A stretch of DNA of 64,000 nucleotides from an uncultured Methylophaga sp. (GTDB lineage Bacteria; Pseudomonadota; Gammaproteobacteria; Nitrosococcales; Methylophagaceae). Each line of letters opens with the position of its first letter. Within the stretch, counting starts at the first letter, position 1. Location of the stretch: positions 62,001 through 126,000 of the forward strand of contig NZ_CAMYKO010000005.1 in the NCBI RefSeq assembly GCF_947259025.1. The letters are read 5' to 3'. Below, piece after piece: positions 1 to 12,002 of this stretch. The notes under the pieces are model-generated. The model saw only the letters and a list, made by a program, of their open reading frames with translations. It was not told the origin of the DNA and did not search any database. The position numbers and the translations under genes are program-made.

Positions 1-1762
1 TTTCTGAGCGGTTATCGATATCGACGCGACATCCTGCGTGGCGAAGTAACTGGGCAACCTGCTCTGCGTAACCGCTGAGGCCCTCATGAATGGTGCAGAT
101 AATCAGTTGAACAGGGGATAACCAGACGGGCAGCTTGCCTTCATACTGTTCGATAAGAATGCCGATAAAGCGCTCCAGCGAACCCAAAATGGCGCGGTGC
201 AACAGCACCGGCGGCTGAGGCGCGCCATTATCACCGATGTAACTGAGCCCGAAACGTTCCGGCAGATTCATGTCGACCTGTAGTGTGCCGCACTGCCAGT
301 CCCGTTTAATCGCATCCTGGAGGACAAACTCCAGTTTGGGCCCGTAAAATGCGCCTTCACCCTCATTGACCTGATATGGCAGCTGTAATTCATGCAGTGC
401 ATTGATGAGGGCTTGTTCCAGGCGATCCCAGGTTTTATCGGATCCGATTCGGTTATCGGGTCGTGTAGACAGCTTGATTCGGATATCGTCAAAACCCAGC
501 TGTTTGTAGATGTCCAGCAGCAGGGCAATGGCAGCAACACATTCCGGCTGCATCTGATCAGGCGTGCAGTAGATATGGGCGTCATCCTGGGTAAAATGTC
601 TGACACGCAGTAAGCCATGCAAGGCACCGGATGGCTCATAGCGATGCACTTTACCAAACTCACTCATTCGAACCGGTAAGTCACGGTAGCTCTTGATGCC
701 CTGCTTGTAGAGCAACACGCTGCCCGGGCAATTCATGGGCTTCATCGCCAATACCCGACCATCAGCTGTCTCAGTGGTAAACATATGCTCTCGGTAATTG
801 TGCCAGTGCCCGGAGGTTTCCCAGAGACTTCTGTCCATCACGTCGGGAGAGTTGATTTCCTGGTAGCCTTCATATGACTGTCTGCGGCGCAGATAGGCAA
901 TTAACTGCTGCAATACCTGCCAGCCCCTAGGCTGCCAGAATACAGAGCCGGGCGCTTCTTCCTGAAAATGAAAAAGATCAAGTTGGCGGCCCAGTTTGCG
1001 GTGATCACGTTTTTCCGCTTGTTCCAACTGATGCAAATGTGCTTTAAGCGCTTTTTTATCCGGCCATGCCGTGCCGTAGACCCGCTGCAGCATTTCATTA
1101 CTGGCATCACCGCGCCAGTAGGCGCCGGCAAGCTTGGTTAATTGAAAGGCCTTACAGAAGGACATATCCGGCACATGCGGACCACGGCACATATCAATAT
1201 ATTCTTCATGGTAATAGAGGCCGACTTCCTTCACGTCGTCAGCCATATCATCAATGATCCGCACTTTGTAAGTTTCGCCGCGGGCTGCAAATATCGCTCT
1301 CGCTTCCGATTTTGCGGTCAGTTTCTTGATAACGCTGTAGCCGGTTTTTGCCAGCGCTTCCATGCGCTGTTGAATGGTGATTAAGTCTTGCGGTGTAAAG
1401 CGATGGTCGCTGTCTATGTCATAGTAAAAACCGTTGTCGATGACTGGACCGATGACCATTCGCGTATCAGGAAACAGTTGTTTGACCGCATGACCGAACA
1501 AATGTGCTGTTGAATGACGGATGATGTCGATGCCCTGTTCACTGTTGGCAAAGATCGGGTCAATCACACAGTCGCTATGGATGACATCACTTAAATCGCG
1601 CGGTTGACCGTTTATCAGCGCCGCCACAACAAAAGGTGTCTTTTTGGGCAGCAGAAGCTGTAATGCTTCTTCAAGACGAACAGGCGTATTGAATGTTTCT
1701 GTCGCCCCTGATTTGAGGGTGACTGTCAGCACAAAGTTGGCCTTGGACGGGGGTAACAACAT
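1..1762 (-). CDS. thrS: Threonyl-tRNA synthetase, 3' end beyond window
   Basis: It charges tRNA-Thr with threonine in the cytoplasm. The frame is open from the ATG at 1762 to the window edge, giving 587 of about 640 residues with no frameshift. Domains in order are TGS, editing (HSTAH and the MCRGPHVP motif), the class II catalytic core ([24 protein letters not shown]) and the start of the anticodon-binding domain. The three residues that bind zinc in E. coli ThrRS (Cys of MNCPG, His of DDAH, His of IHRAILGS) are all kept. It lies 5 nt after the gamma-carbonic anhydrase stop with no clear ribosome site, so it is probably translationally coupled and the last visible gene of the sufE operon. 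Extra thrS copies are known members of Zur regulons, so this may be a second thrS rather than the housekeeping one. That part is inference from context. Confidence 0.93.
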
Positions 1763-1767
1763 GGCGG

Positions 1768-2328
1768 CTAAAACTCGTTTTGTATGTTTTTGTAACCCTT
1801 CACCAAGGCATTGTTAGTCAGGGCGACATCTTCTGAAAATGAGCTGGCATCGGCGGAGACTTGCGGGAATTGAGCGAGGTCAGTATCGGCACCGATACGT
1901 TGCGTTGAGGGCACATAAAAGTTAGCTGGCAGTTCACAACCATCAACTACGGCGTTGTAGCGAACCACGCAGCCGCTATTGAGCTTGCAGTTAAACAAGA
2001 CGCTGTTAAAGCCGACAAAAACCTTGTCACTGATCTCGCACGGACCATGCACGATGGCCCGGTGTGCAATAGAGGTATGTTCGCCGATGGTCACTTTCGC
2101 CCCGGATTTTGAGTGAATGACCACGCCATCCTGAATATTGGAGTGCGCCTTGATAATGATGGGTTCAATGTTGCCGTTTTCATCGAGCTCATCGGCGCGA
2201 ATGACAGCATAGGGCCCAATGAAGACGTTTTCTTCAATGACGACAAGACCACAGACAATGGCAGTCGGATCAACAAAGGCATCAGGATGCACCTGAGGCA
2301 AGTCGCCACGTGGGTTTTTTCTAATCAT
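1768..2328 (-). CDS. Gamma-class carbonic anhydrase-like hexapeptide-repeat protein
   Basis: This 186-residue protein has the left-handed beta-helix fold. It has the family signature [10 protein letters not shown] followed by [12 protein letters not shown]. His72, His89 and His94 fit the three metal ligands of gamma-carbonic anhydrases, and Arg44 in the IRAD motif fits the conserved arginine. The expected reaction is hydration of CO2 to bicarbonate, though many homologues are unproven as enzymes. The start overlaps the upstream transporter gene by 8 nt and the stop lies 5 nt before thrS. Gamma-carbonic anhydrases that can work with iron are recurring neighbours of COG0523 and Zur genes in other bacteria, which suits this location. 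Enzyme activity is uncertain; the family is clear. Confidence 0.85.
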
Positions 2329-3325
2329 GTAAAAGCTTCTTTGTTTTAGTTTGAGATGAACGCATCAGCAAATGGCTGAGCAGGGTAAGGTGAGGAAACT
2401 CCAAAAGCATGCCGATGACAATAGCCGCGTAGATCAATGGCTGGGAGGGCAATGCAACCATTGTTACCGCCAGCATCAGCGGGGCATTTCGTGCTGCAAT
2501 TGTCATGGTCAGTAGTACGTGCTCAGCATAGGGGAGTGCAAAACGTTTGCTGAGTAACTCGCTGAGGACAAAGGTCAATACAAAGAAGCAAAAAACAGCC
2601 AGTAATAACCAGGCAACGACGTTGATATGGCTCAGCAGGACATGAATGTTGCCGGCAAAAATCTGCATAATCAGCAGTGAAATCAGAATCGGGATAAGCT
2701 GTGATATGGCGGCCTGTAAAGCACGCATTTGTTCTTTAGTCAGCAGCAGGTTGAGCAAGACTCTCGCTGCTAAGGCAAGCGCAAGCGGTTCTATAAACCA
2801 GTGCTGCAGGGTGTTAGCTAGTATCCCCGGTTCAATGGTGACCACATCGCTGGTGAAGACATATAAAAACACCGGGTAAAGTAATAGTTGCAAAACCATG
2901 TTTACAGGCAGTAAAGCGGCGCCCAGCAGGGTGTCGCCGTGGCAAAGGCGGGTAAAACCCAGAAACCAGTCCGTGCAGGGCGACATAAAGTAAATCACTA
3001 ACCCGACCATCAGCAGCGGGTAGTCACTCAGGAACACAGAGGCAATGCCGTAACCGATGACAGGCACTAAGACAAAGTTGGCAATAACCGCGATGACTAA
3101 GACTTTGAGCTTGTGTCGACTATTGATCACCAGGTTAAATCTAAGACTGAAAAACAGCAGCGTAATCAGGGTCAATAGTGTGGGGTCGCTGTACTGACTG
3201 ATAGACTCAGCGAGCGCGGGGGTGGCGGCGTGGCCAATTAAGCTGCCACTGATGAGACCGATAAGCAATACCAGGGCTGAGAAACCCAGTCCGTGCTGGG
3301 GGGATGGGGGTAGCGTGGTTAACAT
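2321..3325 (-). CDS. BASS/ACR3-like membrane transporter
   Basis: A 334-residue integral membrane protein with about ten hydrophobic segments. The segment with MSPCTDWFLGFTRLCHGD near residues 112-130 resembles the conserved Pro-Cys-Thr region of ACR3 arsenite exporters and other bile acid:Na+ symporter-superfamily proteins. Substrate is unknown; its place between a flavoprotein and gamma-carbonic anhydrase in a presumed zinc-responsive operon argues against simple arsenic resistance, and no arsR or arsC is near. Its start overlaps the 3' end of the flavoprotein gene by 7 nt, and its stop overlaps the carbonic anhydrase start, so expression of all three should be coupled. Confidence 0.75.
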   Translation of the reverse strand: MLTTLPPSPQHGLGFSALVLLIGLISGSLIGHAATPALAESISQYSDPTLLTLITLLFFSLRFNLVINSRHKLKVLVIAVIANFVLVPVIGYGIASVFLSDYPLLMVGLVIYFMSPCTDWFLGFTRLCHGDTLLGAALLPVNMVLQLLLYPVFLYVFTSDVVTIEPGILANTLQHWFIEPLALALAARVLLNLLLTKEQMRALQAAISQLIPILISLLIMQIFAGNIHVLLSHINVVAWLLLAVFCFFVLTFVLSELLSKRFALPYAEHVLLTMTIAARNAPLMLAVTMVALPSQPLIYAAIVIGMLLEFPHLTLLSHLLMRSSQTKTKKLLHD

Positions 3326-4443
3326 TCGCAGTCCTCACAACATTCGCTATTACCAAAGGGACCCCAGGGGGCAGATTCAGCGTGCAGATCACTGTCATCC
3401 AGAGACAGGCAGAGAGCTATCAAACTGGCGAGTTGGGTAAAGCGCTGACGGAATTTGTAGATAAAGCAATACTGCTGCGTGCCTTGCTTGACCTGGGGGC
3501 CGACAAGAAATAACCCGGGAGTGCGGGTAGACTCATCAGCCTCGCTAAGCTGAAGTTTGCCGTTTTCATCCCATTCCCACAGCTCACTAATCTGCTGAGC
3601 GCCGCCGCCGGCTACAAACCCGGTCGCTAGAATGGGCGGGTGGTTCACATGCCATTGCCGGCCATCTTCGGCGTGTACCCGGAATGCACTATCCTCGCCC
3701 TGGTCAACATGACTGATATTGGCACCGAAATGAATGTCCAGTCTCTGGGTTTTCAATGCCTCGTTCAGCCTGTCCCGGCTATGTGGTGATAACGATAAAC
3801 TGGGGTCATAGAGGTTCTCCGATTCCCAGCTGTGTTTTTTTACCAGCAGGCGCACGTGGTGCCCTTGTTGGACCAGGTTTACGCTGGCATCAACACCGCT
3901 TTCGTAACCGCCGATAACGATAAAGGTCTCGGCATCGTAATCGGTCCAGTCATTGACCGTGGCATAGTGGATACAGGAGTCTGCGCCGGGAAAGGGGGCG
4001 AGATCCGGAAACTGGTATTCCCCCGTTGCCCAGATCAAAAACTTGGTTTTGACTTCACCCCGTTCAGTTTGCAACTTAAAACCGGCCGGTTTACAACGGT
4101 CGACGTGGTTAACAGGACAGTGTTGCTCAATGGGCAACATAGCGGTTTCAGCGATAAACGCCAGATAATCAGCGTATTGATTTCCGGGGGGGTGCTGTGA
4201 GCCGCAAAATATCGCCGGTGAGCTCAGTTCGCTGATGGCATTTAGATCAGCCAGACCATAAGGGTTGCTGTGAAATGACGGCGTTAAGAAATGGGTTTGC
4301 CTGGGCCAGCGTCGAAAAGATTCGCCGATATCACCCGGCTCGAGGACGACATAGGAGAGAGCAGGGATATGCTGAAGTTTCAGTGCCATCCCGATCCCTG
4401 CGGCACCGGCACCGACAATGACGACATCGTATGACTCTTCCAT
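3319..4443 (-). CDS. FAD/NAD(P)-dependent oxidoreductase with Cys-rich C-terminal tail
   Basis: 374 residues with an N-terminal FAD-binding Rossmann motif (GAGAAG, residues 11-16) and a second dinucleotide motif (GGYESG, about residues 175-180), as in CzcO-like and flavin monooxygenase-like enzymes. The reaction is unknown. The last eight residues (ECCEDCEC) hold four cysteines: 368, 369, 372 and 374. That is unusual for this family and looks like a metal-binding or redox tail. The gene starts 3 nt after the sufE stop and its end overlaps the transporter gene. A disulfide, persulfide or metal-transfer role coupled to SufE is conceivable but is only inference. Confidence 0.75.
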   Translation of the reverse strand: MEESYDVVIVGAGAAGIGMALKLQHIPALSYVVLEPGDIGESFRRWPRQTHFLTPSFHSNPYGLADLNAISELSSPAIFCGSQHPPGNQYADYLAFIAETAMLPIEQHCPVNHVDRCKPAGFKLQTERGEVKTKFLIWATGEYQFPDLAPFPGADSCIHYATVNDWTDYDAETFIVIGGYESGVDASVNLVQQGHHVRLLVKKHSWESENLYDPSLSLSPHSRDRLNEALKTQRLDIHFGANISHVDQGEDSAFRVHAEDGRQWHVNHPPILATGFVAGGGAQQISELWEWDENGKLQLSEADESTRTPGLFLVGPQVKQGTQQYCFIYKFRQRFTQLASLIALCLSLDDSDLHAESAPWGPFGNSECCEDCEC

Positions 4444-4446
4444 TGC

Positions 4447-4893
4447 TCAGTGCCCCCGTGTTTCGCTGAATTGATGGGCAGACAGGTGTATTTTCTCGAC
4501 CATACGGGCGAGTCCCGTGGCACGTTGTGAGCTCAGATTGTAAACAAGCCCGGTTTGGGTAATGAAGTCAGCCGGAGTTCGTTGAATTTCGGTGGCAGAT
4601 TGACCTGAATAGACTCGGAACAACAGGGCCATCAGTCCTGCTACAATCGTTGAATCGCTGGTTCCGGAAAAATATAATCTGTTGCCCGATGATTCGGCCC
4701 GGAACCAGACATTCGACTGGCAGCCGGCTATTTTATATTGCTCGGTTTTCAGGTGATCGCCATCGCGTCTCAGTTTTTTCCCCAGATCCACCAGGTAGGC
4801 ATAGCGATCGACCCAATCCTCCAGCGTGCTGAAGTTGTTGATGACTTCGGCCTGAGCCTCTTTAATACTTTGCTTGTTTTTACTTGCAGCCAT
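4447..4893 (-). CDS. sufE: SufE-family sulfur acceptor/desulfurase activator
   Basis: SufE accepts sulfane sulfur from a cysteine desulfurase and passes it to Fe-S cluster assembly. The protein shows the family core YKIAGCQSNVW, with the acceptor cysteine at residue 58 from the start chosen here, then SDSTIVAGLMALL. An ATG 18 nt upstream (4911) is also open, but it lies 3 nt from the proposed Zur operator at 4915-4929 and would leave no room for a leader, so the ATG at 4893 is preferred. Neither start has a clear Shine-Dalgarno sequence. No sufBCDS gene is near; this is the first gene of a five-gene leftward operon. It may be a second SufE copy used under zinc limitation. Confidence 0.8.
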   Translation of the reverse strand: MAASKNKQSIKEAQAEVINNFSTLEDWVDRYAYLVDLGKKLRRDGDHLKTEQYKIAGCQSNVWFRAESSGNRLYFSGTSDSTIVAGLMALLFRVYSGQSATEIQRTPADFITQTGLVYNLSSQRATGLARMVEKIHLSAHQFSETRGH

Positions 4894-4914
4894 AAATAAC
4901 GATGGATTCATAAA

Positions 4915-4934
4915 AGATACAATATATCATATCA
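4915..4934. promoter_or_regulatory. Proposed Zur operator upstream of the sufE-thrS operon
   Basis: The 15-mer AGATA-CAATA-TATCA (4915-4929) is an inverted repeat of the type WGATA-N5-TATCW. A second overlapping half-site series (TATCATATCA) extends to 4934. The same pattern recurs at 5616, 7418 and 10086 in the same gene neighbourhood. It sits between the divergent sufE and zur genes, close to sufE. The link to Zur is inferred from the adjacent regulator and from resemblance to known A/T-rich Zur palindromes. Confidence 0.6.
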
Positions 4935-5117: not shown

Positions 5118-5570
5118 ATGCCAATGAAAACTGAAAAAATACTTCAGCAAGCTGAAAAAACCTGCATGGAACAGGGGGGGCGTTTAACCCCCAAGCGTCG
5201 CCAGGTACTCGAGATTTTGCTGCAACAACCCCAACCCTTATCAGCCTATGAAATTGCCGATCATTACCAGCAGATTCTGAGTGAGACCATCCCGGCGATG
5301 TCGGTATATCGAATGCTCGACTTTCTGATTTCACAAGGCTTGGTTCATAAACTGGCATCAGCGAATAAGTTTATTGCCTGCTCTCATATTACCTGTACCC
5401 ACGGTCATCAGACACCACAGTTCCTGATTTGTGATAACTGTCATTCAGTGCGTGAGGTAGGGATTGATAATCGGCTTATTAACGCGCTGAAAAAAAGTAT
5501 CAGTGACAATAAGTTCCAGTTAAACAGCCCCCAACTGGAACTTCATGGGCTATGTGAAGACTGCCAGTAA
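5118..5570 (+). CDS. zur: Fur-family regulator, probable zinc uptake regulator Zur
   Basis: A 150-residue Fur-family repressor. It has an N-terminal winged helix (LTPKRRQVLEIL through MSVYRMLDFL) and a C-terminal dimerisation domain. The latter holds the structural zinc site CDNC (105-108) and CEDC (146-149), and the sensory-site type residues His77, Cys88, His90 and the HGH stretch at 95-97. The Cys88-x-His90 arrangement and the zinc-linked neighbours (COG0523, ZrgA-like, gamma-carbonic anhydrase) favour Zur over Fur. A TTG at 5061 is in frame but would add 19 residues with no homology; ATG 5118 or 5124 is more likely. It is divergent from the sufE operon with about 200 bp between, and a hairpin terminator follows. 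Confidence 0.88.
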   Translation: MPMKTEKILQQAEKTCMEQGGRLTPKRRQVLEILLQQPQPLSAYEIADHYQQILSETIPAMSVYRMLDFLISQGLVHKLASANKFIACSHITCTHGHQTPQFLICDNCHSVREVGIDNRLINALKKSISDNKFQLNSPQLELHGLCEDCQ

Positions 5571-5577
5571 TCACCTG

Positions 5578-5608
5578 TCACCGGCTATGTTGCCGGTTTT
5601 CTTTTTTG
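5578..5608 (+). terminator. Rho-independent terminator after zur
   Basis: CCGGC, a 6-nt loop and GCCGG (5581-5596) are followed by a T-rich run (TTTTCTTTTTT). It lies 10 nt past the zur stop and just before the proposed operator at 5616, so it should separate zur from the next transcription unit. Confidence 0.75.
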
Positions 5609-5615
5609 TAATAAA

Positions 5616-5630
5616 TGATATGATATATCT
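5616..5630. promoter_or_regulatory. Proposed Zur operator upstream of the fhcA-like gene
   Basis: TGATA-TGATA-TATCT, an inverted repeat matching the WGATA-N5-TATCW pattern seen at three other sites in the island. It lies 97 nt before the ATG at 5727, downstream of the zur terminator. Confidence 0.6.
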
Positions 5631-5726: not shown

Positions 5727-7388
5727 ATGAACATCGTTTGTTTAAAAAATGCCCGTGTCTATGATCCACTTCAACAAGCCAGCGGGGAAATGATGACACT
5801 GTGGATAGGCGATGACAGGATAATCGATGAGCCTTCAGCGGAACTGCAGCAAAAAGCGACTGTGTATGACCTGAATGGGTCCGTGACCATGGCTGGTGCT
5901 CTGGATATTCACAGTCACATTGCCGGCGGTAATGTGAATACCGCCCGACTGATGTTGCCTGAGCAACATCGCAGTCATCTTGAACGCAATCATCAGACAC
6001 CATTTTCCAATGCCAAATGGTCTTCCTTTGAGACCGGGTATCGTTATACCGAAATGGGCTACAGCATGGTGCTGGAGCCAGCGATGTTGCCGGTCAATGC
6101 GCCGCAGGTGCATGCCGAGCTGGCAGATATTCCCATCATTGATACCGCAGCGTTAGCGGTGCTTGGCAGTGATGATTTCCTGGTCAGGTTGCTGCGTGCC
6201 GATGCCAGTCAGGCACAAGTGAACGACTACGTCAGCTGGACAATGAATGTCACCAAGGCGCTGGGCCTGAAGGTGATCAATGCCGGCGGCTCGCAGGCTT
6301 TCAAAAAGGGAGCAGAGACCTTCAGTTTGGATGATGTTGTGCCTGAGTACGGCATATCTTCCAGAACGCTTTTGCAACGCTTGCAAACCGCCGTGGTTCA
6401 AACCGGCTTACCACACCCTGTTCATGTGCATTGCAATAATCTGGGCACCCCCGGCAATATTCAAACCATCGTTGACACCATGGAGGCGGCACAGGGCCTG
6501 CCCATGCACCTGGCACATGTGCAGTTTTACGGCTATGGCGATGAAGGCAAATATGGTTTCTCATCGTCGGCAGCACGGTTGATGGAGGCCTTTAACCGGC
6601 ACCCGAATATTACCATGGATGTGGGACAGGTTTTGTTTGGTCAGACTGTCACCCTGTCTGGTGATGTGATAGCACAGTTTGCTCGTCGCTATGACGCCTC
6701 ACCACAGAAATGGAATGTCTGGCATGCCGAGAACGAGGGGAGTGGTGGGATTGTTCCTTATCACTACAAATCAGCGGGTTTCGTGAATGGTCTGCAGTGG
6801 GCTATCGGTCTGGAGATATTCCTGCTTTGCGATGATCCCTGGCGTTTATTTTTCACCACAGATCACCCCAATGGCGCGCCGTTTACCCGCTATCCCGATT
6901 TGTTGCGGCTGTTGATGGATTACGACTACCGAATCGAGTGTCTGTCTCATCTGCATCCGGATATCGCTGAAATGACCTTGCTGGCAGATATCAAACGCGA
7001 ATACAGCCTCGATGAAATCGCGGTGATGACCCGCGCTGCCCCTTCGAAATTACTGGGTCAACAGGATCGTGGTCATCTCAAGCCGGGCGCCAGAGCAGAT
7101 ATTGCGGTCTACCGTGAACAGGACGATAAAGCGGCGATGTTCCGCCGGGCTGACAAAGTGTTTAAAAACGGCCAGCTGGTTCTGGATGAGGGCGCTATCC
7201 TCTCAAGTGCGGCGGGCAAAACGCTGGCCCTGAATGTGAGCTATGATCGGAAAATTGAGCCTCATATTCAAAGCTATTTCGATCGTTTCTATAGTTTACG
7301 AATCAGTAACTATGGTATCACCGATGACACTGGCGAGCTTGAAAGACGATTGCAGATGCACATAGTCAGCGGTGCATTCTCACACTAG
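5727..7388 (+). CDS. Stand-alone FhcA/FmdA-type amidohydrolase (formyltransferase/hydrolase complex subunit A paralogue)
   Basis: 553 residues, full length for FhcA/FmdA, the metal-dependent amidohydrolase subunit. In methylotrophs it releases formate from formyl groups carried by tetrahydromethanopterin; in methanogens it is formylmethanofuran dehydrogenase subunit A. The metal-binding start DIHSHIAGG (His62, His64) is present, as are VHVHCNNLG, HLAHVQFYGYG, TTDHPNGAPFTRYPD and the closing ARADIAVY strand, all typical of the subfamily. No fhcB, fhcC or fhcD is next to it. A proposed Zur operator lies 97 nt upstream and its neighbours are zinc genes. The parsimonious reading is a zinc-starvation paralogue that replaces, or is metallated differently from, a housekeeping FhcA. 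This is inference, since the rest of the genome is not visible. Confidence 0.85.
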   Translation: MNIVCLKNARVYDPLQQASGEMMTLWIGDDRIIDEPSAELQQKATVYDLNGSVTMAGALDIHSHIAGGNVNTARLMLPEQHRSHLERNHQTPFSNAKWSSFETGYRYTEMGYSMVLEPAMLPVNAPQVHAELADIPIIDTAALAVLGSDDFLVRLLRADASQAQVNDYVSWTMNVTKALGLKVINAGGSQAFKKGAETFSLDDVVPEYGISSRTLLQRLQTAVVQTGLPHPVHVHCNNLGTPGNIQTIVDTMEAAQGLPMHLAHVQFYGYGDEGKYGFSSSAARLMEAFNRHPNITMDVGQVLFGQTVTLSGDVIAQFARRYDASPQKWNVWHAENEGSGGIVPYHYKSAGFVNGLQWAIGLEIFLLCDDPWRLFFTTDHPNGAPFTRYPDLLRLLMDYDYRIECLSHLHPDIAEMTLLADIKREYSLDEIAVMTRAAPSKLLGQQDRGHLKPGARADIAVYREQDDKAAMFRRADKVFKNGQLVLDEGAILSSAAGKTLALNVSYDRKIEPHIQSYFDRFYSLRISNYGITDDTGELERRLQMHIVSGAFSH

Positions 7389-7417: not shown

Positions 7418-7432
7418 AGATACGATACATCA
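7418..7432. promoter_or_regulatory. Proposed Zur operator upstream of the merC-like gene
   Basis: AGATA-CGATA-CATCA, a slightly degenerate member of the WGATA-N5-TATCW series, 18 nt before the ATG at 7450. At that distance it would overlap a promoter or early transcribed region. Confidence 0.5.
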
Positions 7433-7449
7433 TATAGTTTGAGGTCTGA

Positions 7450-7839
7450 ATGAAAGATAAAGCAGCCGTGTTATTATCCGGGCTCTGTCTGCTGCACTGT
7501 TTCCTGCCCCCGCTGATTATCAGTCTTGGGCTGATGAGTTTTGCCGGCGAAATGCTGGAGTCTGAATGGGTACACCTTGCGCTGCTATTCCCGGTTGTCG
7601 GGCTCGCGTTGTTCAGTTTACCCGTCTCTTATCGTAATCATCGCTCTCGTGGGCCAATGTTAGTGGCTGCTGCGGGTATCACTGCACTGAGTAGTGCCCT
7701 GATCCTGCCTGAAACGCTGGAGCTCTGGATTACGGTCCCGGGAGCTTGCCTGCTGATGTTCGCGCACAGCTGGAATAGCATGTTGCTGCAACGTCAGACA
7801 GTGGTGTCGCCAGAGGTACTGGTGCGGGCTACCCGATAA
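7450..7839 (+). CDS. MerC-domain membrane protein
   Basis: A 129-residue protein with four predicted membrane segments. The first carries the MerC-type CLLHC motif (Cys13, Cys17) followed by a proline pair. MerC proteins were named as mercury carriers, but chromosomal short versions next to COG0523 and Zur genes are common and are thought to act on zinc. A GAGG ribosome site lies 6 nt before the ATG. It is the first gene of a set with the DUF2796 and COG0523 genes and has a proposed Zur operator 18 nt upstream. Metal and direction of transport are not shown by the sequence. Confidence 0.72.
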   Translation: MKDKAAVLLSGLCLLHCFLPPLIISLGLMSFAGEMLESEWVHLALLFPVVGLALFSLPVSYRNHRSRGPMLVAAAGITALSSALILPETLELWITVPGACLLMFAHSWNSMLLQRQTVVSPEVLVRATR

Positions 7840-7870: not shown

Positions 7871-8437
7871 ATGAACAGGTTCAGATTGAATGCACTTGGG
7901 AGTGTCATTGCAGCCTTGCTGTCCGTGTCGACAAGCGCAGCTGTTGTCGCCGACGAGCAGCATGACCACCATGATCATCATGGCCACCAACACAGTTCGA
8001 CTGAAGCCCATGTGCACGGGGAAGCAGCGTTAAACCTGGTCATTGATGGACAGACTTTGCTGGTTGAGTTTATCTCGCCAATGGAGAACCTGCTTGGTTT
8101 TGAGCATGCGCCGAAAACTGAGCAACAGAAACAGTCTTATCAGCAACTGCTGCGACAGCTGGCCGGTTACCGTTCACTCTTTTCTATTCCCGGTGGACAA
8201 TGTCAGCTTACTGACCAGCATCACAAGCCGCCTTTTAACGATGCGTCAGGCAAACATGCCGAATGGCAGGGTGAGTATCACCTTAGCTGTGATGAGCTAG
8301 AACAGGCCGACCGTCTTCAACCTGAGATTTTTTCCGCCTTTCCCGGTGTGGAGAAGCTGACAGTGCAGTTGATTTCGACCAAAGGACAATCCCAATTCAT
8401 CCTCAGCAAAGACAGTGATCCTGTTCCACTGCGCTAG
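7871..8437 (+). CDS. His-rich periplasmic DUF2796 protein, ZrgA-like
   Basis: 188 residues with a signal peptide ending near ...SAAVVA, then a metal-binding stretch rich in histidine (HDHHDHHGHQH), and the DUF2796 core beginning AHVHGEAALNL. ZrgA of Vibrio cholerae, a zinc-regulated periplasmic protein of the ZrgABCDE zinc uptake system, belongs to this family. Here it is the likely zinc-capturing partner of the ABC transporter at 10136-12002. A good AAGGAG site precedes the ATG. It lies 31 nt after merC and 40 nt before the COG0523 gene, all probably one transcript. Confidence 0.82.
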   Translation: MNRFRLNALGSVIAALLSVSTSAAVVADEQHDHHDHHGHQHSSTEAHVHGEAALNLVIDGQTLLVEFISPMENLLGFEHAPKTEQQKQSYQQLLRQLAGYRSLFSIPGGQCQLTDQHHKPPFNDASGKHAEWQGEYHLSCDELEQADRLQPEIFSAFPGVEKLTVQLISTKGQSQFILSKDSDPVPLR

Positions 8438-8477: not shown

Positions 8478-9503
8478 ATGAGCGAACTGAAACTACAGCG
8501 TATTCAGCACGCGCTGCCGACCAATGTCATCACCGGCTTTCTCGGGGTCGGGAAAACCTCAGCGATTCAGCATCTGCTTGAACAGAAACCTGACTCAGAA
8601 CACTGGGCTGTGCTCATCAATGAGTTCGGTAAAGTCGGCATTGATCGCCAGTTGCTGAGCAGCACCACAGACAAACAAGGGCAGATAGAGATCCGGGAGG
8701 TTGCTGGTGGCTGCATGTGTTGTTCTGCAGGACTGCCTATGCAGGTGGCGCTCAATCAAATGCTGAGAAGCCGTAAGCTGGATCGCTTACTGATCGAACC
8801 CAGTGGCCTGGGTCATCCGGAGGAGGTGATTGCTTCGCTGGCCGGCCCCAACTACCGGGGGATGCTTGATATCAGAGCCACCCTGACACTGGTCGATGCC
8901 AGGCATTTTAATGATGCGCGCTATACCGAACACCCGGTGTTTCAGCAGCAACTGCATATCGCCGATACACTCGTTGTCAACAAAACGGATTTATCTGCAC
9001 CCGCTGATATTCAGCAAATGGAAAAGACGCTGATTAGACTGCATCTTGATGAGATGCCGACGCACTATTGTGAACAGGGACGGCTGGATCCGGCCTGGCT
9101 ATCAGCGCCGGCCAAGTTTGATCAGGCGAAATGGGCCAATCCGCCCAGCGTGCTCAACCTGGAGTCAGCTGAAGCACCGCTGCCTGACTGTGGTTTCCTG
9201 AGAGAGGAGCAACAGCTCGATGGCTGGTACAGCTGTGGCTGGCGCTTTGAACAAGACTGGCATTTTGATGAGGCTGGCTTGCTTGAATGGTGTGCTGTGC
9301 AGCAAGCTGAGAGACTCAAAGCTGTGGTTAACATTGGCAATAAGGCCATGGTGATTAACCAGGTTGAGGGTCAGATGAAAGCTCAGCACAGCAGAACAGG
9401 CGTCGATGAGAGCCGACTGGAAATGCTGTTTCGGAGCAAACCGGATGCCGCCGCGCTGGAAACGTCTTTACTGGCCCGCCGCCGTGATTACTCTTCGGTA
9501 TAA
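8478..9503 (+). CDS. COG0523 (CobW/YeiR-like) GTPase metallochaperone
   Basis: A 341-residue G3E GTPase with Walker A GFLGVGKT (20-27), the metal-binding CxCC motif CMCC (79-82), EPSGLGHP and the NKTD guanine-specificity motif (168-171), then a CobW C-terminal domain. Such proteins use GTP hydrolysis to hand metal, often zinc, to client enzymes. The ATG at 8478 is preferred to an upstream ATG at 8415 that overlaps the DUF2796 gene. Its last 16 nt overlap the 3' end of the convergent DUF3299 gene. Likely clients in this island are zinc enzymes such as ThrRS or the FhcA-like protein, but that is inference. Confidence 0.88.
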   Translation: MSELKLQRIQHALPTNVITGFLGVGKTSAIQHLLEQKPDSEHWAVLINEFGKVGIDRQLLSSTTDKQGQIEIREVAGGCMCCSAGLPMQVALNQMLRSRKLDRLLIEPSGLGHPEEVIASLAGPNYRGMLDIRATLTLVDARHFNDARYTEHPVFQQQLHIADTLVVNKTDLSAPADIQQMEKTLIRLHLDEMPTHYCEQGRLDPAWLSAPAKFDQAKWANPPSVLNLESAEAPLPDCGFLREEQQLDGWYSCGWRFEQDWHFDEAGLLEWCAVQQAERLKAVVNIGNKAMVINQVEGQMKAQHSRTGVDESRLEMLFRSKPDAAALETSLLARRRDYSSV

Positions 9504-10066
9504 AGTTCTACCGTTTCCGCGGTCATGCTATAAGCAGACTGTGCCACATTATTCTCAGTGAAGCTGGTTGTGATGGTCCCTTCCAGCCAATAGGCATTAT
9601 AAATATCTTCCACCATAATGCCTTGTTGTGAGGTGACATAAATAATCTGATTGGGTGGTGGTGGTGGCAGGTGAATGCAGGCACCGAAGTAGGGCACCAG
9701 GAAAAACTCCGTGACTTCCTGTTTGTCGTTCATCTCTACAGGCACAATAAAACCGGGTAGCCGAATGGCTTTGCCGTCCATGGATTCAACAATATCAGTT
9801 GAAACCAATGCTCGCTGGTAGGCATCATCGGGTGCGGTAGACTGTTCCAGTGCGTTGAGCATTTTGTTACTGAGATTGTCCTCAGGACTGCCGTCTTCAA
9901 TCTCGTTGATATAGTCGGGTGGATTCTCCAGCGCTTTCAAATCTTTTTCCGGCAGCAGATCAACCCAGTTGATACGCTGGTAGTCTTCGGCCAATGACAG
10001 GCCTGAAAAAACAAAAAGAATAAGAAAGACGATCTGGCGGGTGAGGGCAGCAGTTAGCTTGGGCAT
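9488..10066 (-). CDS. Periplasmic DUF3299 protein of a zinc-uptake cluster
   Basis: 192 residues from the ATG at 10066, with a signal peptide (hydrophobic to about residue 22) and the DUF3299 core (IRLPGFIVPVE, FFLVPYFGACIHLPPPPPNQII). A longer open frame to 10204 would run across the proposed operator and into the divergent ABC gene, so it is rejected. DUF3299 genes commonly accompany DUF2796 and FtsX-type ABC genes, as in Vibrio zrg clusters, and the protein probably helps zinc import. The conserved Cys-Ile-His near PYFGACIH could bind metal. It is divergent from the ABC ATPase and convergent with the COG0523 gene. Confidence 0.75.
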   Translation of the reverse strand: MPKLTAALTRQIVFLILFVFSGLSLAEDYQRINWVDLLPEKDLKALENPPDYINEIEDGSPEDNLSNKMLNALEQSTAPDDAYQRALVSTDIVESMDGKAIRLPGFIVPVEMNDKQEVTEFFLVPYFGACIHLPPPPPNQIIYVTSQQGIMVEDIYNAYWLEGTITTSFTENNVAQSAYSMTAETVELYTEE

Positions 10067-10085
10067 ACGCAACTCATTATTGACC

Positions 10086-10100
10086 TGATATGTTGTATCA
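10086..10100. promoter_or_regulatory. Proposed Zur operator between DUF3299 and ABC genes
   Basis: TGATA-TGTTG-TATCA is a perfect 5-bp inverted repeat with a 5-bp spacer, the best of the four sites. It lies 20 nt from the DUF3299 ATG and 36 nt from the ABC ATPase ATG, so one site could repress both directions. Confidence 0.65.
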
Positions 10101-10135: not shown

Positions 10136-10801
10136 ATGCTCCTTATCGACAATCTGACATTCCGTTATCCGGGTGACGATAGAGACCTGCTCCATATCCC
10201 TCACTGGCAGGTCGAGGCCGGTGAGGCTATCTTTCTGTCAGCCCCTTCCGGCAGTGGCAAATCGACGCTGATTAATTTACTAGCGGGCATTCTTACGCCG
10301 CAACAGGGCACGATCCGCTTGCTTGATACCCTGATTAATCAATTGTCTGCTCGCCGCCGCGATGCGTTTCGGGCCCGTCATATCGGCATGGTATTTCAGC
10401 AGTTTAATCTCATTCCTTACCTCAGTGTGATGGATAATATTCGCCTTGCCAGTCATTTCTCGGCGCTGTCAGCAGCAGAGGCTGATAAGCGCGCATCCCA
10501 GCTGTTGGACAAGCTGGGGCTGACTGAAGCAGAAGCCGGACGTAAGGCAGGCCTGCTCAGTGTCGGTCAGCAGCAGCGGGTGGCAATTGCCCGCGCCCTG
10601 ATTAACGAGCCTGAACTACTGCTGGTTGATGAACCGACTTCGGCGCTGGATACGGCTCACCGTGACAGGTTTATTGATTTATTGATGCAGCAATTGGTGC
10701 CAGCACGCACCAGCCTGATTTTTGTCAGTCATGACACCAGTCTGCGGTCGCATTTCAGTCGACATGTCGAAATAGGAGCACTTCAGCATGATGCTGCTTA
10801 A
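10136..10801 (+). CDS. ABC transporter ATPase, LolD/MacB-like, zinc cluster
   Basis: A 221-residue nucleotide-binding subunit with Walker A SGSGKST (38-44), Q-loop, signature LSVGQQQR, Walker B LLLVDEPT and H-loop SHD. It resembles LolD/MacB-type ATPases that pair with FtsX-like permeases. It overlaps the permease gene by 14 nt. Given the DUF2796 and DUF3299 neighbours and the proposed Zur site, it probably energises a Zrg-like zinc-uptake system rather than lipoprotein release. Confidence 0.82.
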   Translation: MLLIDNLTFRYPGDDRDLLHIPHWQVEAGEAIFLSAPSGSGKSTLINLLAGILTPQQGTIRLLDTLINQLSARRRDAFRARHIGMVFQQFNLIPYLSVMDNIRLASHFSALSAAEADKRASQLLDKLGLTEAEAGRKAGLLSVGQQQRVAIARALINEPELLLVDEPTSALDTAHRDRFIDLLMQQLVPARTSLIFVSHDTSLRSHFSRHVEIGALQHDAA

Positions 10802-12002
10802 ACTTGCCTGCTACAGTCTCGGTTCCCGGCTGGGCACGGTATTGTTGACAGTGTTGATGATGAGCGTCAGCGTGTTTGTACTGCTCAGCGTCGAGAACAT
10901 CCGCCATCAGGCCAAGGAAAGTTTTCAGCAAAGTGTTTCTGACGTCGATTTAATCGTCGGCCCGCGTACCGGGCAGATCAACCTGTTGTTGTATTCCATT
11001 TTCCATATCGGTGTACCAACCCACAACCTGAGCTGGAACAGTTATCGGATGTTGCAACAGCATCAGGATGTCGACTGGACTATTCCTTTGTCACTGGGGG
11101 ATTCTCATCAAGGCTACCGGGTGGTGGGGACTGAACAGCAGCTGTTCGCGCATTTTCGATATCGCGCTGATCAGGCACTGGATTTTGCTTCCGGTCAGGC
11201 TTTTAATAAAACTTATGATGCGGTGGTGGGGGCTGAAGTCGCTTCCAGTCTGGGCTATCAGGCCGGCGATGAGATTGTGCTGGCCCACGGCATTGCCGAT
11301 ACCAGCTTCAGTCGCCATGACAACCATCCATTTCAAATCAGCGGCATTCTCAAGCCCACCGGCACGCCGATCGATCGTTCGGTATTTATCAGCCTGACCG
11401 GCCTGGAAGCCATGCACGCGGATTTCCCCGGTGCTGATACCGCCCCTAATCTGACACCGCAGTCGGTAACTGCCGTGATGGTCGGGCTCAAATCGAAAAT
11501 CAAAACCTTCACTCTGCAGCGAGAGATCAACCAATATGCGGGTGAAGCCCTGCAGGCTATTTTGCCCGGTGTGGCATTGAGCAGCCTGTGGTCAATGCTC
11601 GGCGGGGTAGAACAGACTTTATGGGTGATATCGCTGTTGGTGCTGTTGGGCGCTTTGATTGGCATGGTCAACGTGCTGTTACTGTCGATGCGGGAGCGGC
11701 AACATGAACTGGCGGTATTAAGAGCACTGGGATACCGGCCCGGCTTTTTGTTTGCCTTGCTGCAACTGGAAGCGCTGTTGATTACTGTCTCATCAATCAT
11801 CGTCGCCTTACTGGCATTAGCAGCAGGCGATATCTGGCTGCGCCAGTGGCTGTTGTCCCAATTCGGTTTGTTTCTTTCTGAGAGCCTGCTACAGCCGGGA
11901 ATGGCGCATTTGTTGATGGGGATTGTGCTGGCCGCGGTCGTGTCAGCCTTACTGCCGGCAATCAATGCTTACCGGCAGGGGCTGAATCTTCAACTGCGTT
12001 AG
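10788..12002 (+). CDS. FtsX-like ABC permease, zinc cluster
   Basis: 404 residues: one N-terminal membrane helix, a large MacB-type periplasmic domain (about 40-270), then three C-terminal helices (about 275-400) of the FtsX family. It starts inside the ATPase gene and ends 6 nt before the convergent sugar dehydrogenase stop. It would form the membrane part of the Zrg-like transporter with the ATPase before it. No lipoprotein-sorting neighbours are present, which favours the zinc role. Confidence 0.8.
   Translation: MMLLKLACYSLGSRLGTVLLTVLMMSVSVFVLLSVENIRHQAKESFQQSVSDVDLIVGPRTGQINLLLYSIFHIGVPTHNLSWNSYRMLQQHQDVDWTIPLSLGDSHQGYRVVGTEQQLFAHFRYRADQALDFASGQAFNKTYDAVVGAEVASSLGYQAGDEIVLAHGIADTSFSRHDNHPFQISGILKPTGTPIDRSVFISLTGLEAMHADFPGADTAPNLTPQSVTAVMVGLKSKIKTFTLQREINQYAGEALQAILPGVALSSLWSMLGGVEQTLWVISLLVLLGALIGMVNVLLLSMRERQHELAVLRALGYRPGFLFALLQLEALLITVSSIIVALLALAAGDIWLRQWLLSQFGLFLSESLLQPGMAHLLMGIVLAAVVSALLPAINAYRQGLNLQLR

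Follow-up and report, generated by a model that had tools for sequence, protein, structure and literature searches.

Paralogues of zinc enzymes linked to Zur were surveyed by Haas et al. (2009, PMC2770081), whose main text treats nine such families, HisI, PyrC, Cam, HemB, CysRS, ThrRS, amidase, QueD and DksA, together with FolE2, a Zn-independent isozyme. Ligand loss is reported there for the paralogues of PyrC, HemB and DksA and not for those of HisI, CysRS, ThrRS, QueD and AmiA. The hypothesis put forward in that text was that the paralogues use another metal or none, with a higher copy number as the other possibility where the ligands are retained. Neither 'formylmethanofuran' nor 'amidohydrolase' occurs in the main text of that paper and FhcA is not one of the nine families. 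Searches of openly licensed papers found no description of an FhcA paralogue linked to Zur or to zinc, which agrees with an earlier note on the DNA studied here, made from its sequence, that knew of no such case. The closest FhcA of solved structure is that of M. extorquens, in which fhcABCD is described as lying within an archaeal-like C1 cluster (PMC8141765).

The locus reported here lies in a stretch of 64,000 nucleotides from an uncultured Methylophaga sp., called the window below, and carries a second fhcA, named fhcA2. It would form a new family among the Zur-controlled backup enzymes, themselves a known kind.

The fhcA2 gene and the canonical fhc operon

The gene fhcA2 (5727..7388, + strand) is a complete open reading frame with an ATG start and encodes an amidohydrolase of 553 aa of the formyl-methylofuran hydrolase subunit A type. 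The model TIGR03121, 'formylmethanofuran dehydrogenase subunit A', matched residues 5-534 of the product with 647.6 bits, above the curated cut-off of 392.75, a full-length match that makes the protein a member of FhcA/FwdA. Its nearest relative in the PDB, by sequence and by fold, was the FhcA of M. extorquens (6S6Y), which was also the best Foldseek match (TM 0.85) of an AlphaFold model of FhcA2 (pLDDT 82, pTM 0.85); the stretch 307-345 was disordered in this single-chain model. The FhcA/FmdA-type amidohydrolase recognised here by the earlier note is confirmed by these matches. The note was also right that the subunit stands alone, meaning that neither fhcB, fhcC nor fhcD adjoins fhcA2 at its locus.

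The source genome (2.70 Mb, 99.88% complete) contains a second, canonical gene, fhcA1, on a different contig (C4:273497-275101, 776 bits), where it sits in a canonical fhcB-A-D-C operon. A search for such a gene in an fhc locus had been proposed with the note, and its presence on contig C4 excludes a genome with no other fhcA, the finding that would have told against the idea. FhcB, FhcC and FhcD were each found in one copy above cut-off, FhcA being the sole doubled subunit, and fhcA2, like the paralogues of Haas et al. 2009, is an additional copy of a zinc enzyme whose gene is found elsewhere in the genome. The two proteins share ~50% identity, with the same residue in 151 of the 178 columns conserved within both types.

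Zinc genes around fhcA2

To the right of fhcA2 lie genes for a MerC-domain membrane protein (7450..7839, +; PF03203, 85 bits), for ZrgA of a zinc uptake family (7871..8437, +; PF10986, 137 bits; NF047873, 102 bits, under the cut-off of 185) and for a COG0523/CobW G3E GTPase, a putative metallochaperone (8478..9503, +; PF02492, 155 bits). They are followed by a gene for a DUF3299 protein (9488..10069, -; PF11736, 162 bits) and by an ABC ATPase and FtsX/MacB-type permease (10136..12002, +). To the left, beyond zur, a leftward unit behind Zur-like boxes begins with a sufE-like gene (4447..4911, -; PF02657) and continues with a YpdA-like FAD/NAD(P) oxidoreductase (Pyr_redox_3; 3319..4443, -), a sufE paralogue and an oxidoreductase (3319-4911) thus heading a Zur-boxed unit. 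Next come an ACR3-like transporter (2321..3325, -; TIGR00832, 56 bits, under the cut-off of 282.8), a gamma-carbonic-anhydrase-like protein (1768..2328, -; matched by gamma-CA and CcmM models, all under cut-off) and a second threonyl-tRNA synthetase (1..1762, -; TIGR00418, 696 bits) that continues past the left end of the window.

Beyond the ThrRS gene, to the left of the window, are a dihydroorotase and then a second HisI. Two thrS and two HisI were counted above cut-off in the genome, and a canonical PyrC is encoded elsewhere. About 8 kb to the left of the window a further box (C5:54089) precedes MerC-DksA-ZigA-DUF1826, of which MerC and DUF1826 were named by eye; a DksA that scores better than that of the island is found elsewhere in the genome. 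The first 2.4 kb of the window and the 8 kb leftward of it thus hold Cam-like, ThrRS, PyrC, HisI and DksA members, which are five of the nine families that Haas et al. name. The claim that fhcA2 lies between zinc genes was borne out, with zur, zrgA, COG0523 and second copies of ThrRS, HisI, DksA and dihydroorotase nearby, and fhcA2 shares with known Zur paralogues the clustering with COG0523, zur and other zinc paralogues. Directly after zigA-DUF1826 in this genome is a gene for a large FAD-linked oxidase-like protein of ~980 aa (L146 4954-7893), and a protein similar to it by eye, also of ~980 aa, directly follows fhcA2 in genome G022 (L050 9228-12197); it may be another Zur-linked gene.

The zur gene and Zur-like boxes

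The gene directly before fhcA2 (5121..5570, +) belongs to the Fur family (PF01475 FUR, 46.6 bits, above the cut-off of 23.1), and the best NCBIfam model for its product is Zur (NF008646, 105 bits, under the cut-off of 167). The placing of fhcA2 directly after zur was therefore upheld with Zur as the best model, below its cut-off. A Zur-like box, GATATGATATATC, occupies 5617..5629, 97 bases upstream of the fhcA2 ATG, where the earlier note had seen a Zur-like site, and boxes of this kind recur in relatives. Between zur and this box is a terminator-like stem with a T run (5580..5597, +), recognised by pattern match alone (three such patterns in the region against 2.3 expected). With a stem of this kind and a Zur-like box between zur and fhcA2, the latter probably has its own Zur-controlled promoter, judging from the sequence.

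Further boxes accompany the neighbouring units. Overlapping Zur-like boxes lie before sufE (4916..4933) and, with one mismatch each, before the MerC-zrgA-COG0523 unit (7419..7436), and one box lies between the DUF3299 gene on the - strand and the ABC transporter on the + strand (10087..10099). The consensus GATAYRWYRTATC had seven matches with 0-1 mismatch in the window, where 0.40 were expected (mean of 100 shuffles) and none of the 100 shuffles reached seven; six of the seven fall between 4916 and 10099. The consensus was derived from the window's own sites, which makes the window count on its own circular, and independent support therefore comes from its further occurrences elsewhere in the genome and in related bacteria. 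Genome-wide, GATAYNNNRTATC was found at 12 places against three for a reversed control, and five of the 12 have an RWY centre, three in the window and two elsewhere in the genome. The latter two precede MerC-DksA-ZigA and a small ORF with a TonB receptor that is closer to haem receptors than to ZnuD. A Zur-type box in the promoter region that recurs at orthologues is the rule for fhcA2, with exceptions such as locus L036 (see below).

Conservation in Methylophagaceae

FhcA2 (>760 bits) was found in 21 of 57 genomes of the window's family, with 19 of 24 in the window's genus, two of 29 in genus g3 and none of four in the other two genera, and no match >600 bits was found in six genomes of another family of the order. 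It is missing from five of the 24 genomes of the window's genus, of which two are at least 90% complete, a point against the explanation preferred below. Canonical FhcA was also present in 20 of the 21 family genomes with fhcA2, the copy in G033 being only partial; the lone genome without it, G043, is 68% complete.

At 18 of the 21 family loci a box with 0-1 mismatch precedes fhcA2 or the unit to which it belongs. Of the loci without a box, L024 and L043 are on 3-kb contigs that end within the fhcA2 unit. In the third, L036 (M. thiooxydans), the front of the unit has given way to unrelated sequence from a point within the TonB receptor gene, and the lack of a box upstream of fhcA2 there counts against the preferred explanation. 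The replaced front of L036 (1-930, at the contig start), which breaks the receptor gene, represents an insertion, a rearrangement or an assembly error. Across the 21 loci (311 kb, including the first 15 kb of the window) 15 exact and 31 one-mismatch box sites were counted, compared with none exact and three with one mismatch in 28 canonical fhcA loci of other organisms (431 kb). In four genomes, those of the window, L035, L037 and L050, a box lies immediately before fhcA2, at a distance of 80-113 bases in the last three. L050 (G022) has fhcA2 beside groEL (by eye) and no zinc marker in 17 kb, and the box is still present.

A COG0523 gene is near fhcA2 in nearly all loci and in nine of them the two reading frames overlap by 17-23 bases. 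Gene order varies. In five Methylophaga loci (L045 1470-7990, L055, L057, L058 and L060) fhcA2 ends a tightly packed run after zur that consists of an ABC ATPase, a TonB-dependent receptor, two ABC permeases, COG0523 and fhcA2; the ABC/TonB set of these loci has the look of an uptake system for zinc (or a zincophore) that has not been described before. In genome G020, from another genus of Methylophagaceae, the order (L025/L053, 399-12659; several genes named by eye) is zrgA-zur-MerC-hisI-zigA-DUF1826-fhcA2-znuCBA-gammaCA-COG0523.

Methylococcales and other bacteria

A scan of named genomes, from which the best 80 of 569 relatives were taken, placed at least 29 fhcA2 loci in Methylococcales (Methylomonas, Methylobacter, Methylocaldum, Methylotuvimicrobium, Crenothrix and others; L077 was assigned to the order by the tree). 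Seven loci among these best 80 were from Methylophagaceae and lie on the same contigs as seven of the 21 family loci. When Zur, COG0523, DUF1826, ZrgA, HisI and MerC were scored as zinc markers among these best 80 of 569, they accompanied 28 of 29 Methylococcales fhcA2 loci and all seven Methylophagaceae loci, whereas none of 29 canonical fhcA loci had them. The exception among these Methylococcales loci is L062, whose genome, a Methylomonas MAG (G070), has three full-length FhcA, one canonical and two scoring like the second type. The motif TGTTATANNATAACA, with at most one mismatch, gave 26 matches across 32 loci of the fhcA2 type, compared with none across 28 canonical ones; at least one match occurred in 20 of the 29 Methylococcales loci from the best 80 of 569, often just before ZigA.

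Fifteen named genomes were searched with FhcA1. Twelve carry an fhcA2-type locus and canonical fhcA was present in 12/12, while M. luteus has the canonical gene only. Both clusters whose flank was typed have FolE2 adjoining fhcA2 or one COG0523 gene away. The order in Methylomonas sp. LW13 is ZigA, ZupT-like, DUF1826, fhcA2, FolE2, COG0523, COG0523, and in M. buryatense 5G it is ZigA, DUF1826, HisI, COG0523, ZupT-like, an opposite-strand ORF, fhcA2, COG0523, FolE2. The opposite-strand ORF in M. buryatense stands between fhcA2 and the genes that follow the ZigA box, which counts against the preferred explanation. A Methylophilaceae MAG has the run HisI, QueD, desuccinylase-like, COG0523, fhcA, DksA, ZigA, DUF1826.

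Outside these groups the second type is not always a second copy. Type-2 FhcA is the sole form in Sedimenticola (L088) and in a single-cell genome of an alphaproteobacterium (L092), so that in those two it is no backup. Ten marine alphaproteobacterial FhcA-like genes (L092, L093, L094, L096, L097, L098, L099, L117, L119 and L127) had no adjacent fhcB or fhcD detected with queries that were distant FhcB and FhcD; nine of the ten have a nearby hisI on the opposite strand, which in L092 is next to folE. A gammaproteobacterial MAG (L106 5933-10656) has an oxidoreductase and a transporter that resemble 2321-4443 of the window by eye, then hisI and a second-type FhcA of 53% identity, the same company with a different lineage.

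Ancestry of FhcA2

Phylogenetic analysis used 53 rows chosen from an FhcA alignment of 105 rows and two PDB sequences. The Zur-linked FhcA2 formed one group of 26 rows with support of 82/92, which is not of the strongest class, within a wider type supported at 100/100 that also holds the FhcA of M. extorquens, on a long branch in this tree, and those of Beijerinckiaceae, Sedimenticola, Methylophilaceae and marine alphaproteobacteria. Canonical gamma- and betaproteobacterial FhcA1 made up a separate group of 14 rows (100/95). As FhcA2 falls in a separate, well-supported type, the tree identifies it as an old second type and a lineage of its own. A recent duplication of fhcA within the genome was rejected, since FhcA2 groups with the FhcA of M. 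extorquens and FhcA1 belongs to another lineage.

The FhcA2 of L025 (G020, Methylophagaceae) nests within Methylomonas with support of 99/92, from which it follows that fhcA2 has moved horizontally; the zinc island of G020 probably reflects transfer between methylotroph orders, to judge by this nesting. Such movement would suit an acquired passenger that sits in a zinc island with no regulatory link to it, but a passenger is hardly credible for a gene that recurs in two groups with different gene orders, that keeps its own box in G022 where no zinc markers are nearby, and whose loci differ so sharply from canonical ones in zinc markers (28/29 against 0/29, best 80 of 569) and in boxes (26 matches against none).

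The metal site

Amidohydrolase-type enzymes of this group have been described, in the account drawn on here, as having four His, an Asp and a carboxylysine around a [Zn-Zn] site (PMC11656701), and the ligand columns were placed by alignment to this general description and not from coordinates. The alignment was made from 133 matches, merged to 105 rows where proteins were identical, and two PDB sequences; L066 was left out (314 aa recovered) and L004, whose locus is cut, lacks the first two ligand columns. His62, His64, Lys182, His233, His235, His264 and Asp379 were identical in all rows that cover them, and FhcA2 has the four His, the Asp and the lysine of a binuclear metal site. A zinc-free FhcA2 by loss of ligands was rejected, the metal-ligand columns being identical in FhcA2 and FhcA1, and the comparison of ligands suggested with the earlier note gave its zinc-free enzyme no support. 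Ligand loss, on the account of Haas et al., is found in some zinc-sparing Zur paralogues and is not required of the kind. The residues near the ligands that differ from FhcA1 (C236/N237, A263 and Y268) were also considered as marks of zinc independence and rejected, as they are common to M. extorquens and other type-2 enzymes. With no metal ligand lost, zinc independence of FhcA2 has no direct support from its sequence, and the shared residues near the site and the [Zn-Zn] site described for the group also speak against it.

Positions fixed in the Zur-linked clade only are Q164, F289, M297, A316, R320, D323 and A334. Four of these seven are in the disordered stretch 307-345, which in the model could possibly be a methylofuran or subunit contact, although this is speculation. 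The same positions, six of which fall in 289-334, together with the poor order of 307-345 and the lack of fhcB, fhcC and fhcD beside the gene, are what might be seen had FhcA2 changed its substrate and come to hydrolyse a different amide or formyl compound of use to zinc-starved cells, outside the Fhc complex. That is improbable in view of the full-length TIGR03121 match far above cut-off, the 151 of 178 doubly conserved columns that are the same as in FhcA1, and the canonical fhcA that accompanies it in all 12 named genomes tested that carry a locus of the fhcA2 type, as well as in 20 of the 21 family genomes with fhcA2.

Several neighbours of fhcA2 differ from it in their metal sites. The dihydroorotase of the island has QVH in place of HxH, its DksA has only two Cys and its HisI2 has DDD in place of DCD, which the HisI of L053 and L118 keep; in ThrRS2 the ligands appear to be intact. 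Judged by the ligands usual in these enzymes, the dihydroorotase, DksA and HisI2 are apparent ligand-loss types. Their company bears on whether FhcA2 is simply an ordinary zinc FhcA under Zur that secures zinc, as a client of COG0523 or through more copies or a higher affinity in shortage. All ligand types are kept, COG0523 is near fhcA2 in nearly all loci and overlaps it in nine, and Haas et al. (PMC2770081) name copy number as an alternative for paralogues whose ligands are kept. Such a role is nevertheless rather unlikely: the same clusters hold the apparent ligand-loss DksA (2 Cys), dihydroorotase (QxH) and HisI2 (DDD) and also FolE2, which the same paper gives as a Zn-independent isozyme, and the old, fixed divergence of the FhcA2 sequence exceeds what a copy-number device would need.

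A proposed role for FhcA2 at low zinc

The explanation that we prefer, and regard as fairly likely, is that a Zur-repressed and anciently diverged FhcA2 supplies formyl-methylofuran hydrolase at low zinc, most likely as an exchange subunit on FhcB-C-D. With sufficient zinc Zur would repress fhcA2, and when zinc is scarce FhcA2 would be made and would, in the most likely form of the mechanism, join the single FhcB-C-D set as an exchange subunit, letting H4MPT-linked formaldehyde oxidation continue when zinc-loaded FhcA1 fails. FhcA2 would use a different metal (Fe or Mn) or receive priority zinc from the neighbouring COG0523 chaperone, either of which is likelier than a metal-free site given that the ligands are kept. 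That FhcA2 replaces FhcA1 is our best inference. Replacement of FhcA at low zinc, as the earlier note had it, was strengthened by the canonical fhcA, the Zur-type boxes and the recurring zinc company, and what fell away was a zinc-free enzyme by its ligands.

Certain observations count against the exchange of subunits. Both the ~50% identity and the different lineage from FhcA1 make a fit of FhcA2 on the resident FhcB-C-D less assured, and in L088 and L089, where a type-2 FhcA is beside fhcB, that FhcB is divergent too, with 32% identity. A bolder version is offered tentatively and with some doubt: an FhcA2 switched to Fe or Mn would swap into FhcBCD, Zur would in this way re-tool the complex, and many Methylococcales and Methylophaga could oxidise methane or methanol through either a zinc or a zinc-sparing Fhc.

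The comparable arrangement in methane-eating bacteria suggests that methylotrophs can sustain their C1 metabolism once zinc is exhausted. If this is true, a central C1 enzyme joins those zinc enzymes for which bacteria have a backup in zinc starvation, and the formaldehyde oxidation of methanotrophs and methylotrophs depends on how much zinc is available. Both the detoxification of formaldehyde and the gain of energy have a bottleneck in Fhc, which makes the idea directly testable in tractable methanotrophs such as Methylotuvimicrobium buryatense 5G, whose cluster includes FolE2, HisI and three COG0523 genes. FhcA1 and FhcA2 would also be a natural pair for the study of metal choice in amidohydrolases, probably with the same reaction and the same ligands and a different metal supply.

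Comparison with known systems

With the FhcA of M. extorquens (6S6Y), FhcA2 has in common its full-length homology, fold, metal ligands and broad lineage in the tree. Unlike fhcA of M. extorquens, fhcA2 is without other fhc genes, in a zinc island and alongside a resident canonical fhcA. The Zur-linked dihydroorotase PyrC2 resembles it in being an amidohydrolase-type enzyme in a Zur cluster, but in the PyrC2 to the left of the window Gln replaces the first His of HxH, whereas in FhcA2 the ligands are kept. The analogy that the earlier note drew to zinc-free paralogues of PyrC, FolE and DksA accordingly holds for the company of Zur-linked backup enzymes and not for the metal site. In keeping its ligands FhcA2 resembles the Zur-linked HisI, ThrRS and QueD paralogues, and not DksA2 or PyrC2, as Haas et al. 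(PMC2770081) present them. It is like the paralogues of that paper in being a second copy, in its Zur box and in its clustering with COG0523, DUF1826 and zur, and it is found close to several of the same families. Unlike the nine families named there, FhcA belongs to a complex dedicated to C1 oxidation.
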